From the NCBI GenBank assembly GCA_039583875.1, contig CM077149.1, positions 21,837,194 to 21,901,193 on the forward strand: DNA of 64,000 nt. The letters run 5' to 3'. Positions 19,809-55,385 of the stretch are shown piece after piece. The stretch is from Platanthera guangdongensis (lineage: Eukaryota; Streptophyta; Magnoliopsida; Asparagales; Orchidaceae). Position 1 is the first letter of the stretch, and each line of letters begins with the position of its first letter. The notes below the pieces were generated by a model that searched no databases, had not been told where the DNA came from, and was given only the letters and a program-made list of their open reading frames with translations. Position numbers and translations under genes: made by a program.

Positions 19809-20610
19809 CTAATCTTCATTCGGAGGGTGAAGCGTGTAAGGACGGTGTCGTCCAGAGTGTATTTTGCGTTGTTTCCATGTTGTGGAAAGTAGATCTGAGA
19901 GTTCCGTGTCCGTAGACGTTGACTCGAGAGTGTTGGTTGGTGGCTGTAGAGCAGTAGGTAGAGTGTCTAGATCTTCCCAGGTACTATCTTCGGGTGGAAG
20001 ATCCTTCCACTGGACTAGCCCCTGCCGGATCGGTAGATTGTTGCGTATAAACTGTCGCAGACTAACCACTGCTAATGGAACATGCAAGGGCATATTCTTA
20101 TGGCTCTGTTTGGGTAGGGGCGTCACATGGGGGTGGGTAGCATTGTGGTATGGTTTGAGCAGTGATATGTGAAATACCGGGTGTATTTTACAGTCCTCCG
20201 GGAGTTGCACTCGGTAAGCCGTTTCTCCAACGACTTCCAGAATTTGGAAGGGTCCGTAAAAACGAAGAGAAAGCTTTCTGCAGCTTGTTCGCTTGAGAGA
20301 GAGTTGACAGTAGGGATGTAACTTTAATAATACCCAATCGTGCACTTGAAAGCGTTTCTCGAGTCTTTTTTTGTCTGCATAAATCTTCATACGATTTTGA
20401 GACTGTTGGAGGTGTTGTTTGAGTTGATGGATGATAGTGTCTCTGGTTTGCAGTGTAAGATCCACAGCTTCATTCTGACTAGTACCTGCACAGTAGGTAA
20501 ATAGCCCAGGGGGCTGGCGACCGAACATGGCCTCGAAGGGAGTGATGTCGGTCGATGTGTTTAGAGTCGTGTTGAAATGATATTCTGCTAAACTTAAGTA
20601 ATTAGACCAT
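19809..20610 (-). pseudogene. Chromovirus integrase C-terminus with GPY/F module and chromodomain
   Basis: The minus frame continues the integrase after a frameshift near 20610: KWSNYLSLAEYHF, FEAMFGRQPPG, then LKLHPYCQ .. LRFYGPFQILEVVGETAYR (GPY/F), HPVFHISLLKPYH, and a chromodomain with LVQWKDLPPEDSTWEDLDTL. It ends LHPPNED. Chromodomains of this class bind modified histone tails and steer integration to heterochromatin. The frame is displaced by one base from the upstream pol: an A-run at HEHPK reads 5 A where 6 would keep frame. That single deletion disables the continuous polyprotein. Confidence 0.93.
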
Positions 20611-23600
20611 TTTTGGGGTGTTCATGAGTAAACATTCTTAAATATTGTTGCAGACTTCGGTTAGTTTGCTCCGTCAACCCATCAGTTTGTGGGTGATAAG
20701 CCGAACTATATAGTAATTTGGTATCTTGTAGTGTGAATAGGTCTGTCCAGAAATTACTTAAGAAGACGGAGTCGCGATCGGAAATTATCGACGTTGGTAT
20801 GCCATTGAGTTTTCCAACTGATTCCCAAAAAACTACTGCTGCATTTGGCGCAGTTAATGGAGGAATCAGGGAAGCGAAATGAGCCGCTCGCGACAATCTG
20901 TCGACTATCACCATGATTATTGTGAAATTATTAGATTTTGGTAATTGTGTGATGAAATCCATAGTGAGGTCAGACCAAATTTGGGTCGGGATAGGTAAGG
21001 GTTGGAGCAACCCATAGGGCAAATGGTTTGAGGCTTTAACCTTTTGACATAGATCACATTGGTTGATGTATTCGGTAAAGTGTTGTTTCATGTTATGCCA
21101 GTGAAAATTATTTTGAATTTTGTGTTGTGTTGCCCTAATTCCTGAATGCCCTCCATAGTGAGTATTATGTGAATTAGTGAGGATTGTTTTGATTATAGGT
21201 GAATTTTGAGGGATGAACAATCTATGTTTGTAGTAAATTTTGTCTCCTAAGTGGGTCCAGTCTGGTCGGGCATGAGGGTTTCGGTGTAATTCGCCTAGCA
21301 ATTGCTGGGTGAATTGGTCAGCAGCATAATCTTGCTGTAAGCCGTCCAATAAGGAAGAAGTGGGTGTGGATAAGGTCATATGTAGTAGATGTGTCGTTGT
21401 TGAAAGTGTGTTGTTTGATGTCTCTGTGGTGGATTCAGAATGGTCCGAACAAGATCTGGATAGCGCATCTGCCACTATGTTATTTTTGCCGGGTTTATAT
21501 TTGATCGTATAATCAAACCCAATCAGTTTTGCTAAGAACATTTGTTGTTCAGGGGTGTGCAAATCCTGTGTGAGGAGATTGTGTAAACTTTTATGATCAG
21601 TTAGTATTTGAAAACGGTGACCCCGTAAATATTGCCGCCACTTGGCAACGGCGGAAGTTACCGCATACATTTCACGGACGTATGTCGACTTGCGTTGCAT
21701 TAGTGGTGTCAACTTCTTACTGAAATACGGAACTGGGTTATTGTTTTGTAATAATACTGCCACTATGTCGATGCCCGAAGCGTCGGTTTCTATGGAGAAT
21801 TGTTCAGCAAAATTCGGTAAGGTCAATATTGGTTTCGAGATTAGAGTTTTTTTAAGAGTTTGGAATGCTGTCTCCGTGTGGTCATCCCAAACGAATTGAG
21901 TTTTGTTTAACAAATCAGATAAAGGTGCCGCTATTATTGAAAAATTCTTAATAAATTTTCGATAAAACCCTGCTAAACCGAGAAATACTCGTACGTCTTT
22001 TTGTGTCTTAGGTGTGTAATATTGTGCAATTGCTCGAGTGTTGGTTTGATTTGGGAAAACCATGCCTTTCGTAATGCAATGGCCTAAAAATTCAATATCT
22101 TCTTTCAAGAAGAAACACTTGGAAAAATTTTTTTCCATGATATTGTCAGTTAGTATTTGGAAAACTGTTCGTAAATGGAGAAAATGTTCCTGTTGGGTGG
22201 TACTAAAGATGAGTATGTCATCAAAAAACACAACAATGAATTTGCGTAAGTATGGTCGAAATATGGAATTCATTAACGATTGAAACGTGGATGGCGCATT
22301 GGTTAGGCCAAAAGGCATGACCGTAAATTCGAAGTGCCCGTGGTGTGTACGGAAGGAGGTTTTGTGAATGTCTGTTTCGGCCATTCGAATTTGATGATAT
22401 CCTGATCGTAGGTCTAATTTAGTAAAAAAACGGGCATGGAATAGTTCGTCCAGTAATTCATCGATAGTGGGTATCGGAAACCGATCTTTTATTGTGATGT
22501 TGTTTAAGATTTTGTAATCGACGCAGAAGCGCCATGTACCGTCTTTCTTTTTGACCAAAATGACGGGTGAACTAAAACTTGATATACTTGGCTGAATAAG
22601 TCCCGCATCCAACATCTCAATTACTAATTTCTCAATTTCATTTTTTTGATAATGAGGATAACGGTATGTTTTAACGTTAAATGGTTGAGAGTTTGGTAGA
22701 AGTGGAATGGTGTGGTCTATGGAGCGTCGAGGTGGGAGAACTGGGTTGTCCTGAAACAAGGAGTTAGATTCGAGCAGCAAATTTTTGAAATTTGGTGGTA
22801 AGGCTGGATCTAAAATTGGTTCGGGTGGACCTTTTTGGCTGGTTTGTGGTAGGTCATTGGTTAATATGCACAGTGCCGATGATTATAGGGACATTAAACG
22901 AGCCACCTGCGATGATGAAACCGTCCTATGAGGGTTGGTGGGTTGACCCTGTAACGTGATTGGACCCTTCTTTGTGGTATATGTTATCGTTAGGTTTGAG
23001 TAGTCGGTGGTCACAGGTCCTAAGGATCAAATCCATCGTACTCCCAAGACGATATCCGCCCCATTGAGGTCCAGGACCTACAAATTTATTTTGTAAACAT
23101 TTGTTTGAATGAGCAGGAGTAAGTCGACACATTTGCATGTGCATAAAACCAACATTCCGTTGCCCATAAAAACTTTAAAAGGTTGTATTGCGAGTACTGG
23201 TAGTTGTAAAAACTTGGTCACCCGTTCGGAGATAAAATCGTGGGAACTTCTGCTATCAATTAAAGTTTGGAAAGGATGGAGTCCTAAGTGTGAAATCACA
23301 CGCAAGCATGTGCCTAAGGGGTCACCTGTGAGGGCAAAAAAACAAACTGAACCATTCTGATCCACTACCTCTTGGATGGGTTCATCGGTCACGTCGTCTG
23401 GTATATCGTGCTCATCACTACCCTGGAAGTATAACAATGTGCCGGAGCCTTTACAATGATGACCGTAGGTGTATTTGTCGTTACAACTATAACATAAGCC
23501 GAGGTCTCTATGTCGTTGACGTTCGGCGGCGGACAGCCGGCGAATTGTGTATTGAAATTGTGGTTTGGGTATGTCTGATATATTGTTGACGGGGTGCCAT

Positions 23601-23960
23601 TGTAGTCGGGGTAGTTGTGGTCGGGTATGGTATTCAGGTTTTTGGGTGGGTGGTGGGTACTCTACACGTGGGCGTGGAGGTTGGATGGAAGCATTTTCTA
23701 ATTCCTGATCCTCTACCATCCGTGCAAGTGCGTAAGAGTCATGTAAATCTGTTGGTCGTTGCATTTTAACAACACTACGTATATTTGGTTTGAGGCCCGA
23801 GATAAATATACTCGTGATAAATCCTGGTGTAAGACCAGGTACTTGTGTTAACAGTTCTTCAAAGTGGTTTTTATATTCAGTGACTGTGGTGGTCTGTTGT
23901 AATTGTTTTAATGACCCCGTTGGGTCTTCATAACCAGAAGGGCCAAAACGTTTTATTAGT
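20594..23960 (-). pseudogene. Chromovirus gag end, protease, RT, RNase H and integrase core
   Basis: One minus-strand frame from about 23960. It holds the end of gag (FVEALIKRFGPSG, LARMVEDQELE) and a zinc knuckle of chromovirus form (CYSCNDKYTYGHHC). The protease has LIDSRSSHDFI, where the usual Gly after DS is Arg. Stops are TAG near 23078, TGA near 23035 and TAA near 22890. A long RT follows ([24 protein letters not shown], catalytic VVFFDDILIFS), then RNase H (SIETDASGIDIVAVL, ILTDHKSLHNLL, NNIVADALSR). The integrase has the HHCC finger (HTHYGGHSG .. CDLCQKVK) and D,D,E residues in TMDFITQLPK, SIISDRDSVF and TDGLTEQTNR. Domains are well kept, so decay is recent; three stops and a mutated protease argue against autonomy. 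Confidence 0.93.
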
Positions 23961-24510
23961 GCCTCAACGAAGTTGGAAAAGTAATATTAGGTAGATCGCG
24001 TAGTGTCGCTTGATACCAGCGCGAGGCTGGACGATCAAGATGACACGGCGCAATGAGCAAAAAGTCTCGTGGATTTATTTTGTGATATTGAAAATATAGT
24101 TGTAAGTTGTAAAGAGAATCCGTTGGGTCGCCCTCACTAAAACGGGTGCAATTAAATTTGAAATCTGAAAGGGACGAAACGACCTGGTGCGATGAGGGGG
24201 AATGTCCAAGAATGCCCTGGGAGGTACTAGCTTGGCCAAAATCGGAGGTTTTTGTCCTTGCATGTAGCAGGTCTAAAGAAGTCTGCATCTGTTTGAATTG
24301 CGCCATCATATCGCTGCGTAACGTGTCGATCTTGTCCGCAGCATCCGTTCGCGTCTTGACGATTTGTTGCACGAGAAAAGTCTCCTTTGTCTGCATATCG
24401 TCGCGCAGGTCGGTCATTTGAGTTGCCCGAGCCGCCCGCTCGGCATGGATAGCTTCTTGTAATTCAAGAAACTGGCTGTGTAATTCTTTGGAGCGTGTAT
24501 GGTCCGCCAT
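23956..24510 (-). pseudogene. Chromovirus gag N-terminal part, frameshifted
   Basis: Starts at MADHTRSKELHSQF (ATG at 24510, about 20 bp after the PBS). It has a coiled-coil-like first 80 residues, then the retrotransposon gag core (FNCTRFSEGDPTDSLYNL, HLDRPASRWYQ). The frame ends LPNITFPTSLRH. Loss of one T in a TTTTT run near 23980 explains why the next part (SNFVEALIKRFGPSG) lies in another frame. Confidence 0.9.
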
Positions 24511-24529
24511 TCGGGAGGGGAAATTCAAT

Positions 24530-24811: not shown

Positions 24812-24956
24812 TGTTGGGTACATTGGTCAAATGTACCTGATTTGAAGAAGCCTCACCCAACTCAATGATATACATCATGATGTATTTGATGTATGTTTGA
24901 GTTACTTGTGCAGGTTAGGTATTCACTGGACTGAAGCTAAAACTTTCTAAGTCCAT

Positions 24957-25935
24957 GTGTCGACACCCAGAGGGAAAGTGTCGACACTTGAGAAAGCTTG
25001 TGTCGACACCCAGACAAGTAGTGTCGACACTTGAAGAAGATGTGTCGACACCTGGGATGCAGAGTCGACACCAGACATAAACTGTCGACACAAGGAGCTG
25101 TGTCGACACTCAGTGAAGAAGAATGCAGAGAAGCAGTGTCGACACTTAGCAGAAGTGTCGACACCTAGAAGAGCTGTGTCTACACCAGAAAGTGTCGACA
25201 CTTGGAGTTGTGTCGACACTCAGCAAAATTCTGCAGAGACTAAGTGCAAGTGTCGACACTTAGCACAATGTGTCGACACTTAACCAAAAGAGTCAAACCT
25301 TGAAGTATGTGTCGACACTCAGCACAATGTGTCGACACACAACCAAAAGAGTCAACACTTGAAGTATGTGTCGACACTCAGCACAATGTGTCGACACACA
25401 ACCAAAAGAGTCAACACTTGAAGTATGTGTCGACACTCAACACAATGTGTCGACACACAACCAGAAGAGTCAACACTTGAAGAAAGTGTCGACACCCAGC
25501 ACAATGTGTCGACACTCAGTTGAAGACTCAAAGAAAGTGTCGACACATGAAGCTGTGTCGACACTTAGCAAAGAACAGAAATATCTACAAAAATATTCTA
25601 AGTACAAGTGTCGACACTAAGGGAATGTGTCGACACTCAGCTGAAGAATCTATATTGAAGACTTGTGTCGACACCAAGAAGCAGTGTCGACACTTGACAG
25701 TTTCAACACATGAAGATGTGTCGACACAAAGGAGATGTGTCGACACTTAGAAGAATTTAACAAGTTACAGAAGATCAAGTACTTGTGTCGACACTCAATT
25801 CCAAGTGTCGACACCTGAATAAGAATCTGTGTCGAGACATACAAGGAGTTGTGTCGACACCTTGTAGACTTGTGTCGACACTTACACAGCATGTGTCGAC
25901 ATTTGGTCTATAAGTGTCGACACTTAAGAACAGAA
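24957..25935 (+). promoter_or_regulatory. U3 array of GTGTCGACAC palindromes (about 36 copies, near 20-22 bp spacing)
   Basis: Perfect 10-bp palindrome with a SalI core. The first copies start at 24957, 24978, 25000, 25021, 25042, 25062 (GAGTCGACAC), 25082 (CTGTCGACAC) and 25100, i.e. intervals of 21, 22, 21, 21, 20, 20 and 18. Where an interval is about 40, a decayed copy such as GAGTCAACAC or GAGTCAAACC sits midway. Flanks are mostly purine-rich (AGAAG, CAAAAGAG) and not conserved. The array ends upstream of the TATA box, so it lies in U3. It is repeated in the 3' LTR at 36148-37126. Interpretation as protein sites is inference. Confidence 0.9.
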
Positions 25936-26079
25936 AGTCTCGACACTATCTGACAGTTAGAGAATTTCAAGAATTGACTGGATGACGTGACAGCTGCCGT
26001 TCCAGCCAGTCTACAGCACTTGTCAGAGATCTCAGAAGTCAGTTATGAACCGGACCAGCCGGTTACCATGAAGAAGGCC

Positions 26080-26088
26080 TATAAATAG
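26080..26088 (+). promoter_or_regulatory. TATA box of the 5' LTR
   Basis: GCCTATAAATAGGC context, the only strong plant TATA box in the LTR, about 145 bp after the palindrome array and 16 bp after the AACCGG..CCGGTT hairpin. The copy in the 3' LTR is at 37271-37279. Confidence 0.8.
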
Positions 26089-26576
26089 GCACAGACTATT
26101 TACAGAAAAAAAGGTTGTCGTTGTTGTTGTGAAGAGTTAACAGAAGAAGATTAAGTTCTGATTGAGTTCAGATTAATATAAGAGATTTGTTCAAGTGGTT
26201 GCTGATCAAGTTATCCAAGTGATACAAATCAAGAAGATCGTGCTGTCCAACGACAGATCTAAGAAGTTGGAGAGAGAGAGCTCCAATCAAGAATTCAGTC
26301 TTTGGAACTAGGCTGAGAAGAAGGATTCAGAAGCATCTGGATCTTAAGAAGCAGAGGTCAAGGAACAACTGCAGAGGATTCAGACTTATTCAGTTCTACT
26401 CAAGAAGCTTTGAAGGAAGCTAAGTCAGTTTGGATCTATCTGAGTTCTTCCAAGAACTCAGCAAGAAACTCTCAACTCCTCTCTTATTTTCTGAGTTGTT
26501 GAGTTATTTGTTGTAATACTATTTTAACTTGTAGGATCTTTGGATCTGAGTGCATTGTAAGCCTAAATTTATAAAG

Positions 26577-26745
26577 GCTGAGGGTAGGGCTTGATAGCCT
26601 GAGTGTAGGAGTTGAAGAACTCTGAGTGTAGGCCTTGATTGGCTGAGTGTAGGCCTGGGTGGCTGAGTGTAGGCCTTTGTGGCTGAGTGTAGGCTTTGGA
26701 GAAAGCTGAGGTGTAAGGCTTTGGGCCTGAGGTGTAGGAACCTAT
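26577..26745 (+). repeat. Short tandem repeats GGCTGAGTGTAGGCCT in the transcribed part of the LTR
   Basis: CTGAGTGTAGG words recur at intervals of about 20-40 bp, and related GAGGTGTAGG words follow. The same block lies at about 37766-37935 in the 3' LTR. Located between TATA box and PBS, so it would be in the leader RNA. Confidence 0.8.
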
Positions 26746-27023
26746 TTGGGTTCTGAGACAGTGGAGAAGTTTGGCCGAATCTAGTACACTGCTAGATAGG
26801 CGAAGGGGGAAAGTGGATGTACCCAAAGATTGGGGAACCACTATAAATCACTGTATGCTGTGCTGTGAATGTGCTGTGTATGTTTGATTATTGCTGATTG
26901 CTGTAATAGACTACTTAGAAATCTGTGATATAACTGTTTGGCTGCCAACAAAGTTAGAAAAGGATTAGGTCACCTATTCACCCCCCCCCCCCCTCTAGGT
27001 GTTTAGGTACCATATCTTTCAAG

Positions 27024-27034
27024 TGGTATCAGAG
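27024..27034 (+). other. Primer-binding site (tRNA-Met) of the Sirevirus-like element
   Basis: TGGTATCAGAG, 2 bp after the LTR end TTTCA. Confidence 0.95.
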
Positions 27035-27137
27035 GGAGGTTCCTCAAAACAAGGACTAACAGTCTAAGGAGATCCTGTTTGGCAGAAACAGTATAAGTCA
27101 GAAAACAGATTCAAGAAATTCAAGAACTTCAAGAAAC

Positions 27138-29180
27138 ATGGGTTCTTATGAGAATCACAAAGAGTTGGTTTCCATGAAGTTACCCATATGCAGGAAGGAG
27201 ATCTTTGGAATCTGGAAAGAGAGGGTAAGGCTATTTATGGAAGCCTCTGACCCTAGAATATACATCACAGTAAAGGAAGGGCCTTATGTGCCAATGAAGA
27301 TTTCAGTATTGGATGCAAATCAGAGTACTCCAAAGGATTTCTCTGAGATGACCAAGGATGAAATTGTCCTAGCCACTATGGACAAGAGGGCACAAAACAT
27401 AATAGTGAGTGTCATTGATGATGCAACTTTTCAGAACTTAATTCACTGTAAAACAGCAAAAGAAATGTGGGATACCCTCATTGTCTATATGGAAGGTTCT
27501 GAAGAAGTTAGGCAAGATAGGAAGTCCTTGCTTAATCAAGAGTATGAGAGCTTTAGGCAAGGAAAGGGAGATAGCATCACTGAATGCTACAAGAAGTTCT
27601 ATAGAATAGTTAATGAACTCATGTCTTATGGAAGAGAGTTCACTAACTATGAACTAAATGACAAGTTCTTAAGGTCCCTAACCAAAGATTGGGACACCAA
27701 GATCTGTGCCATAAGAGAAATGGCCAAGTTGGGGGAAATTCCTCCTCCCACACTGTTGGGAAAGCTATTATCTTATGAAATGCAGTTAACAGTAAGAAAA
27801 GAGGAGGAGAAGTCAACAAGGACTGAGCACAAAGAAAGGACTGTTGCTTTCAAGACAGAAGTTCCCAGAAAGAGCAGGAATAAGTCTTCAACTCCACCTC
27901 CAGAAGTAGTTGAATCAGAGTCTGATGAGTCTATAAGCACAAAGTCTAAGAGCAGTGAAAGTGATGAAGACTTTGCTGCTTTCACCAGGCACTTTCAGAA
28001 GTTTTTGAAAAAGAAACAGTGGAGGTCAAGGCCTTCTACATCTCAAGGAAAGGAAGACTCTTATCAGAAAAAGAGGTCTTCAAAGTATGACAAGAAAAGG
28101 ACAAAATCAAGCAGGGCAACTAGTTCAAAGATTGTTTGCTATTGCTGCAATAGACAGGGTCATGTCATTGCTGATTGTCCTGAGAAAAGAAAAGAATCCA
28201 GTGACAGGAAAAAGACTCACTTCAAAGGGAAGAAAGAGAAGTCTTTTGTTGCCAAGAATGAGAAGACTCTTTCAGATATTTCTTCTTCAGACACTGATAC
28301 TGATGCTGAAGCCTACATAGGGCTATTTGCTGAAGAAGAAGAAGAAGACTTCATACAGATCTTGGAGTCAATTTATGAACAAGAAGACAGTCATTGCCAA
28401 GGACTAATGGCTTTGACAGAGAGTGCCAAGATCCTGGAGCAGCCAGGACCTAGTCAGGTACAAAGTCCAACTCTAAGTTCAGTTTCTTGTTCTAGTTCAG
28501 AATCAGAATCATCTTCATCAAATGATGGAAGTGGTTCTGAGTCTGAGGATGATATTCATCAGCTTATAGATGAATATAAGGTGCTGTTACAGGCTTATAA
28601 GAAAAGCAAGTCCCTTGCCAAAAGTCAGGCAAAGGAGATTGCTGATCTCAAGGCTGCTGCAACAGAATTTAAGAAGCAATTTGATCAAAAACTGAATGAG
28701 GTAGCTAGGCTGAAACACATTACAGTGATTCAGATGGGTACTATCACATTTAAGAATGATCAAATTAAGAAACTGGAGACAAATCTTCAGAAAGAGAGAG
28801 AACTGGTTACAAAGTTTTCAAAGCCTAAATCAGTTCTACCTTTGATTGATGATTTTACTCATCACAAAGGTAAGGCTGGACTGGGTTTTGTTAAACCTGC
28901 CAGGACTGTTCAGGATCAGTCCAAGCCCAAGGGCAAGGCCCCAACATTCAATAAGTCAGCTGCAGTTAAGACAGCAAAGTCTGTACCTAAGCAAAGGTAC
29001 AATAAGTTTGAATGTTGGTGTTGTGGCAAGGTTGGCCACTTTGCCTTGGATTGTTGGCACAATGGAAGTGCCAAAGGGAGAAGCAAGCTACCTGGTGGAA
29101 AGCCAGTAGGTAGCTGTGTCATGTTGCAAACTAACAATCACCAAGGATCCAAGTTTACTTTGGGTTCTAAGGTTCATTAA
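27138..29180 (+). CDS. Gag polyprotein of the Sirevirus-like element (680 aa, two CCHC knuckles)
   Basis: Forms the virus-like particle that packages element RNA. The N-terminus (MGSYENHKELVSMKLP) leads into a UBN2-type gag core at about residues 50-215 (KEMWDTLIVY, SYGREFTNYELNDKFLRSL, SYEMQLTVRKEEEK). A Ser/Glu-rich linker follows. The first knuckle CYCCNRQGHVIADC is near residue 334. Then come an acidic stretch, a coiled coil at about 490-560 (LLQAYKKSKSLAKSQAKEI), a basic segment, and a second knuckle CWCCGKVGHFALDC near residue 624. Two knuckles far apart are unusual for copia gag. The frame is uninterrupted. It ends with TAA in the same frame as pol, 6 bases before the next ATG-led frame. 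The start is the first ATG after the PBS with gag-like sequence directly behind it. Confidence 0.93.
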   Translation: MGSYENHKELVSMKLPICRKEIFGIWKERVRLFMEASDPRIYITVKEGPYVPMKISVLDANQSTPKDFSEMTKDEIVLATMDKRAQNIIVSVIDDATFQNLIHCKTAKEMWDTLIVYMEGSEEVRQDRKSLLNQEYESFRQGKGDSITECYKKFYRIVNELMSYGREFTNYELNDKFLRSLTKDWDTKICAIREMAKLGEIPPPTLLGKLLSYEMQLTVRKEEEKSTRTEHKERTVAFKTEVPRKSRNKSSTPPPEVVESESDESISTKSKSSESDEDFAAFTRHFQKFLKKKQWRSRPSTSQGKEDSYQKKRSSKYDKKRTKSSRATSSKIVCYCCNRQGHVIADCPEKRKESSDRKKTHFKGKKEKSFVAKNEKTLSDISSSDTDTDAEAYIGLFAEEEEEDFIQILESIYEQEDSHCQGLMALTESAKILEQPGPSQVQSPTLSSVSCSSSESESSSSNDGSGSESEDDIHQLIDEYKVLLQAYKKSKSLAKSQAKEIADLKAAATEFKKQFDQKLNEVARLKHITVIQMGTITFKNDQIKKLETNLQKERELVTKFSKPKSVLPLIDDFTHHKGKAGLGFVKPARTVQDQSKPKGKAPTFNKSAAVKTAKSVPKQRYNKFECWCCGKVGHFALDCWHNGSAKGRSKLPGGKPVGSCVMLQTNNHQGSKFTLGSKVH

Positions 29181-29186
29181 TTTGTT

Positions 29187-32100
29187 TTGCAGGTGAATCC
29201 AAGTGGCCATACCCCAACATGGTACTTGGATAGTGGATGTTCCAGACATATGACTGGAACAAGGGGACTACTGAAGGACTATATTCCAATCAAAAATGGT
29301 CCTAAAGTGACCTTTGGTGGTTCTGAAAAAGGAATCATCAAAGGATTTGGTAACATTTCTTCAAACCTTGTTACCATTACTCAAGTGGCTTATGTTAAAG
29401 GGTTGAAACACAACCTTATAAGTATAAGTCAGTTAAGTGATGTAGGGTATGACATCTCATTTGTTAAAAATGGTTGTCATATCAAGAGGTCAAGTGATCA
29501 AGAGATTATTTTGACAGGATATAGAAAGAGGAATGTCTACTGTCTAGACATTATGATTGAGAACAATGGTTCTCTTGTTTGTCTTGTAGCTGATGAGACA
29601 GTCTCTCATTGTGTCAAGTGGCACAAGAGGCTAGCTCATCTTAACTACAAGACTATTAGCAAACTCTTTAGCAAAGAGTTAGTGAGGAATGGTCCTCAAG
29701 TTAAGTGTGTTAAAGATGGTATTTGCTCAGCTTGTCAAAAGGGCAAGCAGACTAAATCCACCTTTAGAAGCATAGATAACAAAGATGCTGTGAGGTGTTT
29801 ATACCTCTTGCATATGGATCTATTTGGTCCAATGCCAGTTCACAGCTTAGGTAGGAAGGTCTATACCTTTGTAATTGTTGATGACTACTCAAGGTTTTCC
29901 TGGGTGTTCTTCTTAAGGCAGAAATCTGAAACACCTAGTGTCTTCTACAGCTTTGTCAAGCAAATTCAGAATGAACTAAATAGTACTGTGGTCAAAATTA
30001 GAAGTGACCATGGTACTGAGTTTCAGTCTGAAAGCATGACAAAACTATGTGAAGACTTTGGGATATTTCAAGAATTCTCTTCACCTAGAACACCTCAGCA
30101 AAATGACATTGCTGAAAGGAAGAATAGGACCTTGATAGAGGCTGGTAGAACCCTACTAAGTGATACTTCACTGCCAGAGTATTTCTGGGCTGAAGCAGTT
30201 AACACTGCATGCCATGTTATAAATAGGGCTACCATCACTAAAAGGCTAAACAAGACCCCCTATGAAGTTGTGAAAGGCAGGAAATCAAATCTATCCTATT
30301 TTAGGATCTTTGGTTGCAAATGCTTCATACTTAACAATGGGAAGTCTTACATAACTAAGTTTGCTGCCAAGTCCCAAGAGGGAATTTTTGTTGGGTACAG
30401 CAACAATAGTAAGGCTTATAGAGTATACAACTTGACTACACAAGTTGTAGAGGAGACTGTGCATGTAGTTTTTGATGAGACTAAACTTATTAACAATGAG
30501 TTGTCTAGCAATGTATGCAGCCCCACAGGTTTGACAAAGAGATTGGACAAGCTTACTATAGAAGAGATGCCTGCTGCAAGACAGCAAGTAGAAGGCAATA
30601 GCAGTTGTCCAGGGGGAGAACTACATGTACCAATAGCTGAAGAAATACAAGAAGTACAGCATGATGCAGATGCTGAAGAAGTTCAACCTGAAGTTAGGAT
30701 GCCACCAGCCAACAGGCATCTAAGAGATCATCCAGTAGAGCTGATTATTGGAGATCCAAGACAAAGAGTTCAAACAAGGAGCAGAAATCAGGATGATGCA
30801 ATCTATTCCAGCTTTTTGTCTCAAGTTGAACCTAAAAGATTTGAAGAAGCAATACAAGATCCACAATGGACTGAAGCTATGCAAGAAGAGCTAAATCAGT
30901 TCAAGAGATGCAAGGTGTGGGAATTGGTTCCAAAACCTAAATACCACAATGTTATAGGAACTAAGTGGATCTACAGAAACAAGTTAGATGAACAAGGGGT
31001 CATCATTTAGAATAAAGCAAGACTGGTTGCAAAAGGATATAGGCAAGAAGAAGGTATTGATTTTGATCAAACCTTTGCCCTAGTAGCCAGACTGGAGGCC
31101 ATAAGGATGTTCTTGGCCTATGCAACCTATCAAGGATTCAAGGTTTACCAGATGGATGTCAAGTCAGCATTCTTAAATGGTAATCTTAAAGAAGAAGTCT
31201 ATGTGGAGCAGCCTTCAGGTTTTGTTGATCCAACTCTACCTCATTATGTCTATAGACTTAGGAAAGCTTTGTATGGGTTAAAGCAAGCTCCTAGAGCTTG
31301 GTATGAAACCCTATCTAGTTTCCTCATTGAGAACAAGTTCTCAAGGGGGAAAATAGATAAGACTCTATTCCTTAGGGAATCTAGAGGCAAAGTCATACTT
31401 GTCCAAATATGTGTAGATGACATTATATTTGGGTCTATTGAAAGCAGCCTTTGCAAAAAGTTTGCAAAACTTATGCAAGGTCAGTTTGAAATGAGTAGTA
31501 TGGGAGAGCTGAAGTTTTTCTTGGGTCTCCAAGTTAAACAGACTGAAAGTGGTTTGTCCATTTGTCAGTCCAAGTTCACCCTAGAACTCATAAGGAAGTA
31601 TGGTATGGATTCATCCAGCACCATGAAGACTCCTATGGGGTCAAGTATGTCTCTTAGCAAGGATGATGCAGGGAAACCTGTGGATGAAACCTTGTATAGA
31701 GGGATAGTTGGCTCCCTATTGTACTTAACTGCTAGTAGACCAGACATCATGTATGCTACATGTGTTTGTGCCAGGTATCAAGCCTGCCCCAAAGAGTCTC
31801 ACTTGACTGCAGTCAAGAGAATTTTGAGATATCTAAAGGGCACTCCCTATCTAGGCCTCTGGTACCCTAGGAATGGAGACTTTGATCTAACAGGTTATTC
31901 AGATGCAGACTTTGCAGGATGCAAAGAGGATAGAAAGAGCACTACTGGAACCTGTCAATTCCTAGGTGGAAGACTAATTTCATGGAGCAGCAAAAAGCAG
32001 ACTAGTGTGGCTATCTCCACAGCTGAGTCAGAGTATGTAGCTGCAGGAAGTTGCTGTGCTCAACTTCTATGGATTCAACATCAGCTAGTGGACTATGGAT

Positions 32101-32354
32101 TTCAGGTAAGTAGAACTCCACTCTTCTGTGATTCTACAAGTGCTATTTCAATAGCTAACAACCCTGTATCTCATAGTAGAACAAAATATATTGAGATTAA
32201 ATATCACTTTCTTAGGGAGCATGTAGAAAGAAATGATATTGCACTTGAATATGTTAAAACTGATAATCAGATAGCTGACATGTTTACTAAGCCCTTAGAA
32301 GAAGCTAAGTTCAATAGATTCAAAATTGAACTAGGTATGATAAACTTAGACTAA
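29187..32354 (+). pseudogene. Pol of the Sirevirus-like element, one in-frame TAG
   Basis: Protease WYLDSGCSRHMTG (residues about 12-24); GAG-pre-integrase with HKRLAHLNYK .. CSACQKGKQ; integrase core LHMDLFGP, KIRSDHGTEF and QQNDIAERKNR. The linker ends TRSRNQDDAIYSSFLSQ; RT follows with GTKWIYRNKLDEQGVII, then TAG at 31008-31010 where the family has a basic residue. The same frame then continues [34 protein letters not shown], the catalytic [10 protein letters not shown] and RNase H ([41 protein letters not shown]). It ends [13 protein letters not shown]. Features are those of Maximus/SIRE copia pol. Everything except the single stop is intact. Confidence 0.93.
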
Positions 32355-32387
32355 GTTTACAGACTAGAAAATTGACTAAGTAAAAAG

Positions 32388-32740
32388 GTGTCGACACATA
32401 GACAAGTCTATGTCGACACAGAATAGTGGTATCGACACTTCAGGAAAAACGTGTCGACACATCTAGGAATGTAGTGTCGACACTTCAGAATGTTAGTGTC
32501 GACACATGTCAAGTAGGTGTCGACACATCCAATATGGTGTCGACACTTATGTTTTACTCAGAATTTTCTAAGTAAAGTCTCGACGATGTGTCGAGTTATG
32601 TTGTGTCGACACATAACCAAGTGTCGACACATATTATCTGTTGACTAAACTTGTGTCGACACATGTGTGTCGAGACATTATAAGTCAGTGTCGACACTTA
32701 TTGCCAGTGTCGACACATGTTAAGCTAGCTGTCCCGCCTG
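32388..32740 (+). promoter_or_regulatory. Internal array of GTGTCGACAC palindromes upstream of the third ORF
   Basis: Starts at 32388, 32410, 32429 (GTATCGACAC), 32451, 32474, 32496, 32517 and 32537: intervals 22, 19, 22, 23, 22, 21 and 20. Further copies run to about 32725. Two more half-conserved copies (about 32788 and 32826) lie after the TATA box. Same motif and spacing as the LTR array, but the linkers differ, so it is not simply a recent copy of LTR sequence. Confidence 0.88.
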
Positions 32741-32762
32741 TTCACCTTCAAAATCAGAAAGG

Positions 32763-32771
32763 TATAAATAG
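32763..32771 (+). promoter_or_regulatory. TATA box of an internal promoter for the third ORF
   Basis: GGTATAAATAGGG, 106 bp before the ATG at 32869 and directly after the palindrome array. This repeats the order array, TATA, transcript seen in the LTR. The leader is C/T- and A-rich, as in plant 5' UTRs. Confidence 0.65.
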
Positions 32772-32868
32772 GGTTCTATCTTTGATTGTCGACACGCTTT
32801 CAAAGTTTCGAGACCAAAACTCTTGTGTCGACATTTCTCTCTTCTAAAGACAAATTCTCCAAACCCTA

Positions 32869-35712
32869 ATGGCTCCCAAGCTCGAGGAAAACGTCAACGA
32901 AGGCTACGAACTTGTGCGCGGCACATTCGACGATGGCGATCAAGATATCAAGTCAGTGGTTACCCTAGTCAGCGATTCAGGACTAGCATACTTGGTTTCA
33001 GAACCAACCAAGATATGGAAGAAGGAAGTGCTTGAATTCCTTACTGGAGCAACTGTGGATGACTCTGGATACAGAATCAAATCCAGAGTGCATGGAACCA
33101 AGGTCAAGGTATCACCCAAAAGTCTGAGAAAGGTACTTCAGCTACCTAAGACTCAAGAAGAAGAAGAAGTTTCTACATCCAAGACCAGGGAAGCTTTGGT
33201 CTGGTGTGGTCTTGATTCTAAGATGAAGATAGGTTCAGTCTTTAATAGAAAAGGCATGAACAGTCAAGGAAAATTTCTGTCAGAGATAGTGGGTAAGGTC
33301 ATTCTCAGTAAACCTGGAGGGCATGACAGGGTGTCAGCCTCAATGTTCAATATCATGACAAGAATCATCTTCACCCTAAAAACAGATTGGTCAATGGTCA
33401 TCTATGAAAAGATCAAGGAAAGTCTGAAGAAGCCCAATCTGGGCAGAATTATAAGTCTCTACCTGGCTGGTACAATACCAGAGGTAATGAGCACTGCTGC
33501 AGGTAGCAAAATCAACCACATGAGAAAGATGGATATGAGGATCTTTTCAAGGTGTGAAAGAGTGTTGTCCAAGGAAGTGGCAACCCTAGAAAAGCCAGTA
33601 TCTGCAAAAGAAATTCCTCCTAAGAAGAAGAGAAAGACTGTGCAAGTGGCACAAGAGTCCTCAAGCAGTTCTGAGAATGAAGAACAGGTGGTGTTCACAC
33701 CTGATGATCAGGAGGAAGAGACAGTAGTCAAGTCTCCTGCTCCTCAAGAGACTGCTGAGATCCAGGGGGAGCTGCCTCATGCTAGCCCCATCCATAGGGA
33801 TCACAGCCAGGGGGAGCTTCCAGTAGTAGAAGAACCATCTACTCTGGACAGTGAGCAAGCCACCATCATTATTCAAGAGGTACTCACTGACTTAAAAACT
33901 TTAGAATATCTTATAGAAGATGCTGATTTGTCTGATGTTCCTCAGCAAACTCAGCTACCTAGCCAAGCTCCAGATGTTGTTCTTGAAGACACATCTGCTG
34001 TTGTGCAAAATGTTCCAGATACTACTCAAGTAGTTGAAGAACCAAGTACTTCTCCTGCACAGTCACCTCCTGAATACACAATGGAAGACCTCTTTCTGAA
34101 TTTAGATCAAGAGGATTTTGACATGGACAAGGTTGCTGCTGAAGATAAGAGTGCTGCTGCTGAGGGGGAGCACATGTCAGTTCAGGATGAGCCTTTAAGG
34201 CCAGAGACTGAGAAGGCACTTGATGTGCAAGCAGACAAACCTGAGAACCCTAAGAATAGAGTTGATATTACCAGCACTTCTGCCTCTGAGGATGAGGAGA
34301 GTGCTAGGGCCAAGAAGAAGAAAATCTATGTTTTTAAAAGAAGAAGTCAGAATTACAAGAAATCCCTACAATCCATTGCCCCACAGCCTATAGTTCAACA
34401 AGCCCCAACTGCTGACTATAGTGCTTTACTGATTGCACTACAGATCAAAATGGATGAACAAAGGAAAGCCATAGAGGCTTATGTTGATGCAGGGCACAGA
34501 TCATTACAGTTTGATCTTGCTCAAGATATAAAATCTATAAGGTTTGAGATGAATCTCAACAAGAAAGAAATGACTGACTGCTTCCACAAGGGTGGGAATG
34601 CAGTAGTTTATTTGGCTACTCACCAGGAGAAGATCAAGACTCAGGTAGATGATATAGCATTAAAACAAGAATATGTGCTGGAGAATCAGTTAAGAATGAA
34701 TGATAATTTGACTGCCTCCCACAATGCTATAGTCACTGAATTGAAGAATAAGACTGCTGAATCTTCTACATCTGCTGCTGCCAAGGCTGATTTTGATAAA
34801 GTCTTTCAAGCTGAGATTTCTGCTGTCAAGACTGTCATTCAAGATTCCTAGAAGGCCATCTCTGAACAGCTCACTAAGCTCAAACCTTACTTTAAGGATG
34901 GCATCAGGTACTTGGACAGTCAGATTAGATTTCAAAAGGATGATGTAAGAGACCATGTGGCCCAAGAAGTCATAAAGGGGGAGAGAGTATTAGTCAAGGC
35001 TAGCTCTGACCATACAAAATGGATATCTAACTCCATCAGAGCTACTCTAGGCTATCCTTCACTCTGTGATGATGATAATGTTGCTGAATCAGGGATTCAA
35101 AGTGCATATCTTGGAGGTGAGCGACCAGAGGTAGCTCAAGTGATTTATCCACCTCCAGATTTTGAAATGATTCATGCAGATGTCAGCACAATGTATAGCC
35201 CAACTGCAGGAAAGTCAAATGTTGTTCTGGAAAAGGTTGTTCAACCTATTACTGCAGCTATGCAAGAGGCATTAGAAAAAGAAGAAGAGACAAGACTGTC
35301 AAAGAAGAGGTTTAGGGAACTAGCAGAACAAAAGCCAGATTTTGAACAGTGGAGCCCTACCTCTAGGAATATAATTCTAACTGCCTGGAAAGCTTCCAAA
35401 GACAACATGAATGACAGGAACAAGTGGTTCTCAGAAGCAGAATGGAGGAAGCATGAGATCAGGCAGGAAGCCATTGTCTAGTACAGAAGAAAGGCTAAGT
35501 TAGGAAAGCTACCTCCTACTGCAGTGGAGCCTAGCAAGTACTTTCCTAAGCCCTATCATTATTTTGAGAGGCAGAAAATCAAGGCTGAAGAACAAAAGAA
35601 GAAGGACTCAAAAGGCAAGAAGCCTCCTGATGCTGAGCCTACTGCTGCTGCTGTCAAGGCTAAAGTCAAATCTGGCAAAGGAATTGTTATTAAAGAACCT
35701 GATCAGAAATAG
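32869..35712 (+). pseudogene. Third ORF of the Sirevirus-like element: about 947-codon nuclear-type protein, two TAG stops
   Basis: One frame throughout, interrupted only by TAG at 34849-34851 and 35479-35481. Residues about 40-210 form a folded-looking domain (WKKEVLEFLTGATVDDSGYR, MNSQGKFLSEIVGKVIL, SASMFNIMTRIIFTL, LGRIISLYLAGTIP). It resembles, by my reading, the 'putative plant transposon protein' domain found in other plant retroelement accessory ORFs. A basic PPKKKRK at about 250 looks like a classical nuclear signal, followed by a SSSSSENEE acidic patch. A long acidic, Pro/Gln-rich linker comes next, then a second basic cluster (RAKKKKIYVFKRRSQNYKK, about 480). A helical coiled-coil region (about 520-700) leads to a Lys-rich tail. 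No transmembrane segment is evident, so it does not look like an envelope protein. Start chosen at the first ATG after the TATA box. Role unknown. Confidence 0.8.
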
Positions 35713-36002: not shown

Positions 36003-38209
36003 TGTTGGGTACATTGGTCAAATGTACCTGATTTGAAGAAGCCTCACCCAACTCAATGATATACATCATGATGTATTTGATGTATGTTTGAGTTACTTGT
36101 GCAGGTTAGGTATTCACTGGACTGAAGCTAAAACTTTCTAAGTCCATGTGTCGACACCCAGAGGGAAAGTGTCGACACTTGAGAAAGCTTGTGTCGACAC
36201 CCAGACAAGCAGTGTCGACACTTGAAGAAGATGTGTCGACACCTGGGATGCAGAGTCGACACCAGACATAAAGTGTCGACACAAGGAGCTGTGTCGACAC
36301 TCAGTGAAGAAGAATGCAGAGAAGCAGTGTCGACACTTAGCAGAAGTGTCGACACCTAGAAGAGCTGTGTCTACACCAGAAAGTGTCGACACTTGGAGTT
36401 GTGTCGACACTCAGCAAAATTCTGCAGAGACTAAGTGCAAGTGTCGACACTTAGCACAATGTGTCGACACTTAAACAAAAGAGTCAACACTTGAAGTATG
36501 TGTCGACACTCAGCACAATGTGTCGACACACAACCAAAAGAGTCAACACTTGAAGTATGTGTCGACACTCAGCACAATGTGTCGACACACAACCAAAAGA
36601 GTCAACACTTGAAGTATGTGTCGACACTCAACACAATGTGTCGACACACAACCAGAAGAGTCAACACTTGAAGAAAGTGTCGACACCCAGCACAATGTGT
36701 CGACACTCAGTTGAAGACTCAAAGAAAGTGTCGACACATGAAGCTGTGTCGACACTTAGCAAAGAACAGAAATATCTACAAAAATATTCTAAGTACAAGT
36801 GTCGACACTAAGGGAATGTGTCGACACTCAGCTGAAGAATCTATATTGAAGACTTGTGTCGACACCAAGAAGCAGTGTCGACACTTGACAGTTTCAACAC
36901 ATGAAGATGTGTCGACACAAAGGAGATGTGTCGACACTTAGAAGAATTTAACAAGTTACAGAAGATCAAGTACTTGTGTCGACACTCAATTCCAAGTGTC
37001 GACACCTGAATAAGAATCTGTGTCGAGACATACAAGGAGTTGTGTCGACACCTTGTAGACTTGTGTCGACACTTACACAGCATGTGTCGACATTTGGCCT
37101 ATAAGTGTCGATACTTAAGAACAGAAAGTCTCGACACTATCTGACAGTTAGAGAATTTCAAGAATTGACTGGATGACGTGACAGCTGTCGTTCCAGCCGG
37201 TCTACAGCACTTGTCAGAGATCTCAGAAGTCAGTTATGAACCGGACCAGCCGGTTACCATGAAGAAGGCCTATAAATAGGCACAGACTGTTTACAGAAAA
37301 AAAGGTTGTCGTTGTTGTTGTGAAGAGTTAACAGAAGAAGATTAAGTTCTGATTGAGTTCAGATTAATCTAAGAGATTTGTTCAAGTGGTTGCTGATCAA
37401 GTTATCCAAGTGATACAAATCAAGAAGATCGTGCTGTCCAACGGCAGATCTAAGAAGTTGGAGAGAGAGAGCTCCAATCAAGAATTCAGTCTTTGGAACT
37501 AGGCTGAGAAGAAGGATTCAGAAGCATCTGGATCTTAAGAAGCAGAGGTCAAGGAACAACTGCAGAGGATTCAGACTTATTCAGTTCTACTCAAGAAGCT
37601 TTGAAGGAAGCTAAGTCAGTTTGGATCTATCTGAGTTCTTCCAAGAACTCAGCAAGAAACTCTCAACTCCTCTCTTATTTTCTGAGTTGTTGAGTTATTT
37701 GTTGTAATACTATTTTAACATGTAGGATCTTTGGATCTGAGTGCATTGTAAGCCTAAATTTATAAAGGCTGACGGTAGGGCTTGATAGCCTGAGTGTAGT
37801 AGTTGAAGAACTCTGAGTGTAGGCCTTGATTGGCTGAGTGTAGGCCTCGGTGGCTGAGTGTAGGCCTTTGTGGCTGAGTGTAGGCTTTGGAGAAAGCTGA
37901 GGTGTAAGGCTTTGGGCCTGAGGTGTAGGAACCTATTTGGGTTCTGAGACAGTGGAGAAGTTTGGCCGAATCTAGTACACTGCTAGATAGGCGAAGGGGG
38001 AAAGTGGATGTACCCAAAGATTGGGAACCACTATAAATCACTGTGTGCTGTGCTGTGAATGTGCTGTGTATGTTTGATTATTGCTGATTGCTGTAATAGA
38101 CTACTTAGAAATCTGTGATATAACTGTTTGGCTGCCAACAAAGTTAGAAAAGGATTAGGTCACCTATTCACCCCCCCCCCCTCTAGGTGTTTAGGTACCA
38201 TATCTTTCA
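36003..38209 (+). repeat. 3' LTR of the Sirevirus-like element (2207 bp)
   Basis: Nearly identical to 24812-27021. Observed differences include T/C at the 36209 region, ACTGTCGACA versus AGTGTCGACA, CATACTTAAG-type changes near 37110 and a shorter C run (about 11 versus 13). It carries the palindrome array at 36148-37126 and a TATA box at 37271-37279. Confidence 0.95.
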
Positions 38210-38214
38210 CTGAG

Positions 38215-50595: not shown

Positions 50596-50766
50596 TTGAA
50601 CAACGATCATATGAGAAAGAACTCCACAACATGGGACCACCCCCGCCCCAGCATTAGTTTGCGGACAAACTATGCAGCGGAAGCAGTGGTGTGCCCATGT
50701 GTAAAGTCACATAAATGGTCCACAAAGTACAATATTTTAGGCCAGTTTTGTTTTAACCTTACCTTT

Positions 50767-51886
50767 ATGCAACCTCCACAGGTCGCAGCGCCGCAAAATG
50801 TGGCTCCTCCCCCTCCAGCTGCCACTCCATTCCTACATACGGAGATGGGGCAGACCCTGACGGCGATTTTGGATGCCTTTAGAGCCCAGCAAGTCCCAGC
50901 TCCACAGCCAAATCCGGGGTCGAGCTGGCTGAGTGCATTCAAGAGCCTGTCCCCACCGACGTACCGCGGGACAGAGGATGCGGTGAAGACAGAAGAAAGG
51001 CTGGAGGCCATACACGAGATCTTAGCGGGCATCAGCTGCCCAGTCGGCCAGGAAGTACCTCTAGCCACCTCCGTGCTAGAGGCCCACGCAAAGAGATGGT
51101 GGAAGTCAGTCCGGGAGACTACTTATGCGGACTTTGAGCTGTCAGAGATTTCTTGGGAGGAGTTTGGCGATGTGTTCCTGGAACACTTCGTCTCTGCTAC
51201 GGACAGGGATGCTTTGGAGGAGAGGTTTTTGAACCTCAAGCAGGGGACCAGATCAGTGATAGAGTACCAGAGAGAGTTCTCCCACTTGGCCAGGTTCGCG
51301 GGGATTCAGGACACCGACGATAGGAGGTATGCAAAGAGGTTCTACCGGGGCCTCAGGGATGATCTGAGGCAGGCTCTGTTATTCATTTCACATGGCACAT
51401 CCAGGCAGATCATCGAGATGGCGAAGAAGCTGGAGGCTGACCAGCTGATGGTGCGAGCCGGAGGGAAGAGACCATTTGATGGATCGACATCAGGTGAGGG
51501 CAGTAGGGGCTCTCAGAGAGGCAGGACCATTGGATACAGGAGGGGTGGGGGACGTCGTCGTCCCAACTTCAGGCAGGAGCAGGGGCCTCCTCCAGCTTTG
51601 GCTCCCCCACCTCTACAGATACATGATCCGAGGAGACAGGATGACCGAGGCCACCGACAAGTGGTTTGTTACGGATGCCGCCAGCCTGGGCACATCAGGT
51701 CGGAGTGCCCGCACCGATTCCATCCCCCTCCTCCTCCTCCACCTCCAGTGGCCCCTGTACAGCAGGGCCGAGGACGAGGCCGAGGACGAGGCCGAGGTCG
51801 GGGATATCATGGCAGGAGGCGCGAGCAGGAGCAGATATACGCCTTGGACCTCACAGAGCCGAGGAATCCCGAGGAGGTTATTACAG
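50767..51886 (+). CDS. Tekay gag, joined in frame to pol by a candidate intron
   Basis: Start chosen at ATG 50767 (MQPPQVAAPQNV). The open frame extends upstream to 50596, but that part looks like leader. Gag core: FKSLSPPTYRGTEDAVKTEE, LEAHAKRWWKSV, FGDVFLEHFVSATDRDALEE, LARFAGIQDTDDRRYAKRF. An Arg/Gly-rich stretch and a CCHC knuckle CYGCRQPGHIRSEC (about residue 300) follow. Without splicing the frame ends eight bases on as GT followed by TGA-like end (51894). With the 100-nt gap 51887-51986 removed it reads ITG into [17 protein letters not shown], which is the normal gag-protease junction of this family. Confidence 0.9.
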
Positions 51887-51986
51887 GTACTTGAAGTTAA
51901 TAATGAATTTCTTGGATTTCCAATGATATATATTTAGTACCTGGAACTATAGGATAACAATTAACTTTCACATAAACAAACCTCAG
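51887..51986 (+). other. Candidate intron between Tekay gag and protease (100 nt)
   Basis: TTACAG|GTACTTGAAG at the donor and AAACCTCAG|GCATAG at the acceptor. The insert is strongly AT-rich and has stops in the gag frame, whereas both neighbours are GC-rich coding sequence. Splicing keeps phase exactly (first base of a Gly codon before, the other two after). It could instead be a small AT-rich insertion that happens to have splice-like ends. Confidence 0.65.
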
Positions 51987-54115: not shown

Positions 54116-55385
54116 ATTGCTCGAGATATTCAGTGCACCCCGGCATCACCAAGATGTGGGCAGATTTGCGGAGATCTATGTATTGGCCCGGGATGAAGAG
54201 GGAGATCACGGATTTTGTGACCCATTGCGAGACCTGCCAGCGTGTGAAGGCGGAATGCAAGAGCCCGGGAGGTTTACTACAGCCACTGCCAGTTCCAGAG
54301 TGGAAGTTTGAGGACATTGCTATGGACTTTGTACATGGATTGCCTCGCTCCCACTCCGGACATGATTCTATATGGGTTATAGTGGACAGATTGACCAAAG
54401 TCGCGCGGTTTATTCCAGTTCGGAAGGATGCCCCAGTTGCAGTTCTGGTGAGACTATTTGTGGAGCAGTACATCAGATATCATGGTATCCCCAGGACTAT
54501 TGTTTCGGACCGTGATGGTCGGTTCACTTCGAGCGAGTGGAGGGCCGTGCATGCTTACTTGGGATCTCGGCTTACTTTTAGCACCGCCTTCCACCCGCAG
54601 ACCGACGGACAGACCGAGCGGACCATCCGGACCATGGAGGACCTGCTCAGATTATGCATATTGGATACGGGGAGGCCTTGGGAGAGGCTGCTGCCATTGA
54701 TTGAGTTCTCGTATAATAACAGCCACCAGGCTAGCATCAGGATGGCTCCATACGAGGCGCTTTATGGGAGGAGATGCCGGACACCGCTATCATGGGTACA
54801 GGATGTGGATACCAGGGCTCTGGGATCTGATTATATAGAGGACACTGAGGCTCAGATTCGATTGATCAGGGATCGGCTACTGGAGGCCCAGAGCAGGCAG
54901 GCAAAGTATTATGATGCTCGGCACCGGCAGGTGGAGTTCCAGGTTGGAGACAGGGTATTCTTGAAGATACGTCCAGTACACGGTGTTTCACGGGTGCGGA
55001 GGCACAAGAAGCTCAGTCCACGTACATGGGGCCCTACCTGATCCTGGAGCGGATCGGCCCCTTAGCTTACCGACTGCAGCTGCCACCGGAGTTGGGTGCA
55101 CTACATGACGTCTTCCATGTCTCTTCCTTACGGAGAGCTCTCCTTCGGCCGGAGCAGCACATCACTACTACAGCCGGACCGGTAGAGCCTGACAGATCAG
55201 TGAGATTGGAGTCGATCCGGATTGACGATACAGCCATCCGAGTGTTGCGGAAGAAGAAGGTTCCCCTTGTGAAGGTGCTGTGGTCCAACCATGGACGGGA
55301 AGAGCACACTTGGGAGCCGAGAGATCTGATGCTGGAGCAACACCCGGAGCTATTCGCATCAGGTACATTTAAGTTATGCTTTTAA
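54105..55385 (+). pseudogene. Tekay integrase with C-terminal chromodomain, one frameshift
   Basis: Follows in the next frame: [20 protein letters not shown], zinc-finger Cys pair CETCQRVKAEC, core residues AMDFVHGLPRSHSG, TIVSDRDGRFTS and HPQTDGQTERTIR, then LIEFSYNNSHQAS and FLKIRPVHGVSRVRR. A missing base in CCACGTACATGG (about 55020) shifts into 55026-55385. That part carries GPYLILERIGPLAYRLQLP, HDVFHVSSLRR and a chromodomain-like end (VKVLWSNHGREEHTWEPRDL). Family members would be continuous here, so both shifts are recent lesions. Confidence 0.92.

Follow-up and report, generated by a model that had tools for sequence, protein, structure and literature searches.

Among described elements, Sireviruses come closest to the locus analysed here. 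In the parts of Bousios et al. 2010 (PMC2829016) available for comparison, Sirevirus palindromes lie in the upper half of the long terminal repeat (LTR), upstream of the TATA box and with CpG islands, and extra palindromes precede the ENV-like gene; an internal ENV promoter was proposed there, though not conclusively identified, and the binder is unnamed. The window analysed here, a 64-kb stretch of Platanthera guangdongensis DNA (contig CM077149.1), holds a putative Sirevirus-type Copia retrotransposon with, in order, LTR, gag, pol, a third open reading frame (ORF3) and LTR, from 24812 to approximately 38212. Its LTRs and the region before ORF3 carry arrays of a 10-bp palindrome, GTGTCGACAC. 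As with the Sirevirus RM palindromes, those of the window cluster in U3 on the 5' side of a TATA box, with extra copies before ORF3, and this layout is already known from PMC2829016. Unlike most RMs, GTGTCGACAC has no CGG-CCG core, a condition that only Tnd-1 shares among the 13 RMs published in that paper; each window LTR has 43-44 sites with decayed copies included, compared with at most 14 per 3' LTR in its Table 3; and we found an internal TATA box and a CpG-poor body, the latter not met in the parts of the paper compared. Relative to those portions of the publications that were compared, the motif, the array size, the base-level constraint, the internal TATA box and the CpG-free body appear to be new.

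Partial parallels come from other element classes, including Grande, a Gypsy element. Its gene23, as presented in the available parts of PMC7264820, encodes an accessory nuclear protein between pol and the 3' LTR with its own promoter, like ORF3, although gene23 is antisense to gag-pol and ORF3 is not. The VANC system (PMC5735166, consulted in part) likewise combines a short motif repeated in non-coding DNA with a regulatory gene, which in the present element is only a possibility. VANC, however, comes from VANDAL DNA transposons, its binding and demethylation have been shown, and its motif is not palindromic. Del-type Gypsy elements have LTR CpG islands that form a variable CpG-rich block, and the word palindrome is absent from the portion of PMC4029996 compared; unlike in those elements, the coding region here is CpG-free, and the tested Gypsy coding regions of the same genome are not.

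The interpretation that we favour, with somewhat better than even confidence, is that the arrays are selected, possibly methylation-sensitive, binding-site arrays driving two promoters of one Sirevirus-type element. GTGTCGACAC would be the site of a two-fold symmetric, sequence-specific nuclear protein, and the arrays would act as upstream activating regions of the LTR promoter, which yields gag-pol RNA, and of an internal TATA promoter for ORF3. The window contains 77 exact copies of GTGTCGACAC (0.03 expected from shuffles), with 33 in 24957-25923, 11 in 32388-32716 and 33 in 36148-37072. When up to two mismatches are allowed, the numbers become 43 in the 5' LTR, 17 before ORF3 and 44 in the 3' LTR. 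An earlier note on this DNA, whose coordinates (24957-35712) stop short of the 3' LTR array, had counted about 36 palindromes per LTR and about 14 before the third ORF; the first figure includes some decayed copies beyond the 33 exact ones, and the second equals the 11 exact and three one-mismatch sites inside the array. Across the 11 LTRs compared, 29-35 exact copies are present per LTR.

The case for selection is carried by comparison between copies of the family. Thirty copies were used, chosen as the best matches to the window ORF3 among 101,501 first-look candidates. All 30 retain 10-13 exact GTGTCGACAC before ORF3, mostly with identical spacings, and the expectation that the palindrome is kept while the linkers drift was supported. 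In these ORF3 arrays, 0.33% of exact-site bases differ between copies, compared with 6.4% of linker bases. The corresponding values in 11 LTR arrays, where the window's two LTRs were not compared with each other, are 0.7% for exact sites, 10.0% for linkers and 6.6% for decayed sites, the last having lost most of the constraint. Site divergence between copies is 14-19 times below linker divergence, with sharp borders at 10 bp; bases directly flanking the 10-mer in the LTR arrays show 4-15% differences and mild constraint at -1 and +3 only. Of 120 site columns, 2 contain variants common to several copies and 6 contain variants confined to one copy; the corresponding numbers for the 209 linker columns are 46 and 20. 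Multi-copy variants are mostly older than insertion. Because shared variants are far rarer at sites and single-copy variants less so, most of the constraint acted before insertion. Together, these comparisons support selection on the 10-mer and much less on the linker.

A single divergent subfamily, L091, was compared for co-variation between ORF3 and the motif. Its ORF3 is 75% identical to that of the window over 392 residues, and it carries 12 exact GTGTCGACAC before ORF3, largely in register with the window array. Relative to the window's exact sites, 1 of 101 aligned bases differs, compared with 25 of 206 in linkers, an alignment gap taking nine site columns, or most of one window site; with L091's own sites added, 2 of 120 site bases and 44 of 304 linker bases differ. 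The motif is unchanged, which fits both an element-encoded and a host-encoded binder.

Spacing is looser than the sites themselves. LTR sites less than 30 bp apart have a mean spacing of 19.8-19.9 bp (standard deviation 1.6-1.7, range 16-24). Of the selection on site and spacing suggested in the earlier note, that on the site is supported (0.33-0.7% against 6.4-10.0%). The two-turn phasing also claimed there is only weakly borne out. Phase coherence at 10.5 bp in the LTR arrays is 0.64-0.66 from neighbour to neighbour and 0.25-0.27 array-wide, which does not bear out strict helical phasing, and their best array-wide period is 19.45 bp; in favour of the earlier note, the ORF3 array (17 sites, spacings 14-23 bp) has a best period of 10.7 bp with a coherence of 0.72, a scan optimum obtained without a null. 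Decayed copies do fill part of the long gaps, but in the 5' LTR, even with sites of up to two mismatches included, 7 spacings out of 42 are still 31-53 bp long. The linkers, described as unconserved, diverge by 6.4-10.0% between copies but retain similarity within the array: their first 8 nt are 38% identical (28% when shuffled), and a 59-bp tandem unit of two exact sites and one decayed site is repeated about four times at 25250-25545. Tandem repetition of this kind is the probable mode of array growth.

The layout of the element and its control regions, in window coordinates, is as follows.

24812..27021, + strand: 5' LTR, from sequence and from its direct repeat beginning at 36003 (initial 300 bp matching at 99%); right end approximate, placed from TGGTATCAGAG at 27024, which we take to be a primer-binding-site-like motif
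24957..25946, + strand: U3 array of the 5' LTR, 33 exact and 10 decayed (1-2 mismatches) GTGTCGACAC
26080..26087, + strand: LTR TATA box TATAAATA, from sequence
27138..29180, + strand: gag ORF (Retrotran_gag_2, zinc knuckle)
29187..32354, + strand: pol (gag_pre-integrs, rve, RVT_2), with a single in-frame stop at 31008-31010
32388..32716, + strand: internal array 5' of ORF3, 11 exact and three one-mismatch GTGTCGACAC
32763..32770, + strand: internal TATA box TATAAATA, 106 nt 5' of the ORF3 ATG
32786-32834, + strand: extra decayed GTGTCGACAC sites in the ORF3 leader
32869..35712, + strand: ORF3, with in-frame stops at 34849-34851 and 35479-35481 in the window copy
32883..32974, + strand: CpG cluster close to the promoter, with 10 of ORF3's 11 CpGs
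33622..33636, + strand: first basic cluster of ORF3, KKKRK, residues 252-256
34312..34350, + strand: second basic cluster of ORF3, KKKKIYVFKRRSQ, residues 482-494
36003..38212, + strand: 3' LTR, direct repeat; right end approximate, set by the length of the 5' LTR
36148..37137, + strand: U3 array of the 3' LTR, 33 exact and 11 decayed GTGTCGACAC

The Copia order of gag, integrase and reverse transcriptase between LTRs is present and, combined with the array layout, points to the Sirevirus type. By eye, a purine run adjoins the 3' LTR. The TATAAATA box at 26080 lies 3' of the U3 array and is the same box as the internal one, which was found at -105/-106 of the ORF3 ATG in 24 of the 30 copies; one copy has it at -82, and the remaining five have TATAAATT in its place. 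No further TATAAATA was present from -1500 to -140 of the ORF3 ATG in the 30 copies. These positions support the view that the same array precedes both the LTR TATA promoter and a separate TATA promoter belonging to ORF3.

The nature of the binder was approached through the distribution of the motif. The 4.25-Gb genome has 2,076,908 occurrences of GTGTCGACAC, compared with 2,228 when the pattern is reversed. A hand count classified the first 100 listed places, which all fall within the initial 2.2 Mb of C1. Among these, 44 belong to sequence-confirmed family copies (29 in L008, 11 in L069 and 4 in L091) and 35 to two arrays that resemble the family in spacing alone; 16 are in Gypsy-type arrays (L005 1, L006 2, L070 6, L071 7) and 4 in L001, which is another Copia, with 1 left unclassified. 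L006 and L070 adjoin a Gypsy integrase 62-64% identical to that of the window's Gypsy, and L005 and L071 were called Gypsy-type by DNA similarity to these two. The L001/L004 Copia is distant, with 27% identity in the second pol piece. Literature matches listed for the GTGTCGACAC string, judged by title or start of abstract, included no plant-element paper.

The same 10-mer in these unrelated Gypsy-type arrays and in L001 favours a host transcription factor as the binder, in which case ORF3 would be merely an array-driven env-like or accessory gene without DNA contact. We rate this at slightly less than an even chance. It is also favoured by the motif remaining unchanged at 25% ORF3 divergence in L091 and, in the parts of PMC2829016 compared, by the LTR palindromes of the ENV-less Sireviruses OPIE-2, PREM-2, Osr8 and Tnd-1. 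Arrays in families lacking ORF3, which the earlier note regarded as speaking against an ORF3-encoded binder, were found in part: GTGTCGACAC is present, though less numerous, in the Gypsy-type arrays and L001, and the ENV-less Sireviruses just named have palindromes in their LTRs. Non-autonomous or foreign elements could, however, exploit an element-encoded factor too, so the shared motif fits either a host factor or a hijacked element factor. The same portions of PMC2829016 also report linker palindromes in 9 of 9 ENV-bearing elements and 0 of 4 ENV-less ones, an association that ties array to gene rather than binder to site.

Other palindromes were seen at the same loci. At L070, L071, L005 and L006 (G000:C1 near 475, 482, 64 and 70 kb), ACACGNNCGTGT palindromes are mixed with GTGTCGACAC, in array units of about 103 bp at L070 and L071. 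L001/L004 (G000:C1:3888-7007) includes an LTR-like region with about 12 TCGACGAA motifs and four GTGTCGACAC.

The remark in the earlier note that each site holds a CpG proved its most fruitful: outside the sites, the element has hardly any CpG. The gag ORF with its leader (27001-29180) has 0 CpG against 86 expected and pol 0 against 122, giving 0 against approximately 208 for gag-pol. ORF3 has 11 against 130 expected, with 10 within its first 105 nt and none at all in 32975-35121. Across the 30 copies, a 900-bp stretch of 3' pol contains 6 CpG against 1,050.6 expected (observed/expected ratio, O/E, 0.006), with zero in 25 copies, and ORF3 nt 150-2190 contains 39 against 2,741. Comparison regions of the same genome have O/E values of 0.55-1.01, and those in the window 0.64-1.01, where parts of another Copia and two Gypsy elements (694-3072, - strand; 19809-24528, - strand; 50596-55041, + strand) served as controls. 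Codon counts were made on gag, the two open pol pieces, and ORF3 codons 36-660 with its second open piece: codon-boundary C|G is 0 against about 124 expected and boundary G|C is 81 against about 88, arginine CGN numbers 1 against 119 AGR, and NCG 0 against 543 NCH. In 500 codon-order shuffles of gag and the first part of pol, boundary CpG averaged 58.7 with a minimum of 42; the observed value is 0. With boundary C|G absent and boundary G|C near expectation, the loss is at the nucleotide level. Literature matches listed, judged in the same way, reported no CpG loss in retrotransposons.

The CpGs that remain are concentrated in the sites and at the promoters. In the 11 LTR arrays, exact sites account for 351 CpG and decayed sites for 36, with 4 in linkers against 166.5 expected, and the linker figure weakens regional protection from methylation as the whole cause of the site CpGs. 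Linkers before ORF3 keep more than LTR linkers (65 against 101 expected, 30 copies). With exact sites masked and decayed sites unmasked, O/E around the ORF3 ATG is 0.9-1.6 from -300 to +100, 0.22 from +100 to +200, and 0.00-0.02 thereafter; three LTRs show a weaker promoter-proximal rise, with 0.61-0.85 between -250 and +50 relative to the TATA box. Since CG in the regions examined is nearly confined to sites and promoter edges and the body is almost CG-free, methylation of the sites is plausible as a switch and may be the main on/off mark. On this basis we suggest, tentatively and as a doubtful proposition, that the element shed CG targets from its body and keeps CG almost only in control sites and promoter edges, palindrome methylation being the main heritable, host-set CG mark, cleared by a site-bound factor, possibly its own ORF3 product.

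Whatever the binder, the loss could instead reflect plain deamination of a long-methylated family without gain for the element, to which we assign a substantial but less than even probability. Gag-pol shows an excess of TpG and CpA, as after CpG decay. Nevertheless, the comparison elements of the same genome retain the much higher ratios given above, an O/E of 0.006 is far below what we would expect from mutation balance alone, and CAG and CTG, which are also methylated in plants, are not depleted.

The third ORF does encode the two basic clusters noted earlier, KKKRK from residue 252 and KKKK...KRR from 482, and its product is organised as a basic N-terminal domain (pI 9.5), an acidic middle (pI 4.1), a basic patch and a C-terminal part, with open frames of up to 1,070 codons in other copies. 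Nine related proteins were found, all from Platanthera, in searches part of which scored only about 8,000 candidates sharing most words; P0002, P0004, P0006 and P0009 have the second cluster in modified form. No membrane segment was detected, as the maximum 19-residue mean hydropathy is 1.18 in ORF3 1-660, 0.66 in the second open piece, and 1.27-1.28 in P0006 (1-890) and P0009 (1-780). The membrane-spanning segment typical of a retroviral Env was thus not found in the ORF3 pieces and relatives examined. In the 30 copies, the ratio of nonsynonymous to synonymous polymorphism (pN/pS) ranges from 0.125 to 0.41, with 0.14 for residues 1-230, a value biased downward because the copies were chosen by their ORF3 N-domain match, 0.41 for residues 231-480 and 0.125 for residues 481-730. 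ORF3 is probably a nuclear, constrained accessory protein, as judged from its sequence.

A further possibility is that ORF3 acts in the manner of VANC, activating its own element or countering silencing: its product would bind the arrays, feed back on them and keep their CpGs free of methylation. We regard an ORF3-encoded binder, and this role for it, as rather unlikely, even though the nuclear-type clusters, basic N-domain and constraint would suit it, ORF3's own array-driven promoter could close a feed-forward loop, and CpG is kept around that promoter. Several observations weigh against ORF3 feedback and, in part, against the broader interpretation of the arrays that we favour. No DNA-binding domain was recognised in ORF3 by Pfam, by a PDB sequence search, which gave a single weak match to Ap4A hydrolase (E 0.0078), or by profile-profile comparison. 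Structure models were unusable, with a predicted local distance difference test (pLDDT) score of 38 for the N-domain (8 sequences) and 41 for the C-terminal piece (4 sequences). The first basic cluster is missing from P0006 and P0009, the pN/pS of the N-domain carries the bias stated above, and the choice of best matches understates the diversity of copies. LTR array linkers are CpG-free too, contrary to regional protection from methylation there. The site is common to elements where no ORF3 was seen, either in the 2.4-3.0 kb examined near GTGTCGACAC in the Gypsy-type arrays and L001, or between integrase and array at L006 and L070. The motif is also unaltered in L091, at 25% ORF3 divergence. 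PF20167 (Transposase_32) as the identity of the N-domain found no support either: scores of 24.2 bits for the window and 31.4 for the best of four relatives fall below the cut-off of 45, and hhalign of shallow profiles did not support it.

The genome's PF20167 Gypsy ORFs (L009-L038 and L081-L090), presumably of Athila type, resemble ORF3 in being an extra ORF after pol, with weak similarity to it. Unlike the ORF3 element, however, 0 of these 40 loci carry GTGTCGACAC, and no homology was found by hhalign of the shallow profiles. At one of them, L090:790-1110 (G000:C19 near 111.93 Mb), the PF20167 ORF is preceded by six exact TTCGACGATCTCC and variants that resemble motifs of L001; no such array was found among the other 39 PF20167 loci in those checked, 11 for frequent 8-mers and 30 for palindromes. 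L027 has six TGAGCTCA palindromes inside 3.5 kb. Genome-wide, the ORF3 N-domain had 101,501 first-look candidates and PF20167 had 24,535, which makes both very large families.

It is improbable that the palindromes matter mainly by forming hairpins in RNA or DNA, or as hot spots of small RNAs, and so as targets of host silencing. The palindrome regions of maize Sirevirus LTRs are small-RNA mapping hot spots in the parts of PMC5311732 compared, but diversification would be expected of a host target. The maize regions are indeed described there as highly variable, while the 10-mer here is near-frozen. That the arrays are a functionless by-product of tandem duplication, as the 59-bp unit and residual linker similarity might suggest, is scarcely credible given the 14- to 19-fold lower site divergence, the sharp 10-bp borders and the largely unconstrained decayed sites.

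For this family, evolution appears to have delimited the functional unit to 10 bp, and a putative second promoter with the same array has been located. The near-total loss of CpG outside the sites in the regions examined ties the arrays to DNA methylation in a concrete and testable way, and about two million sites in one genome would form a huge decoy or target pool for any binder. If the proposed interpretation is true, the element would amount to a naturally occurring vector almost devoid of CpG, in which each of the two promoters is preceded by a switch that methylation can address.

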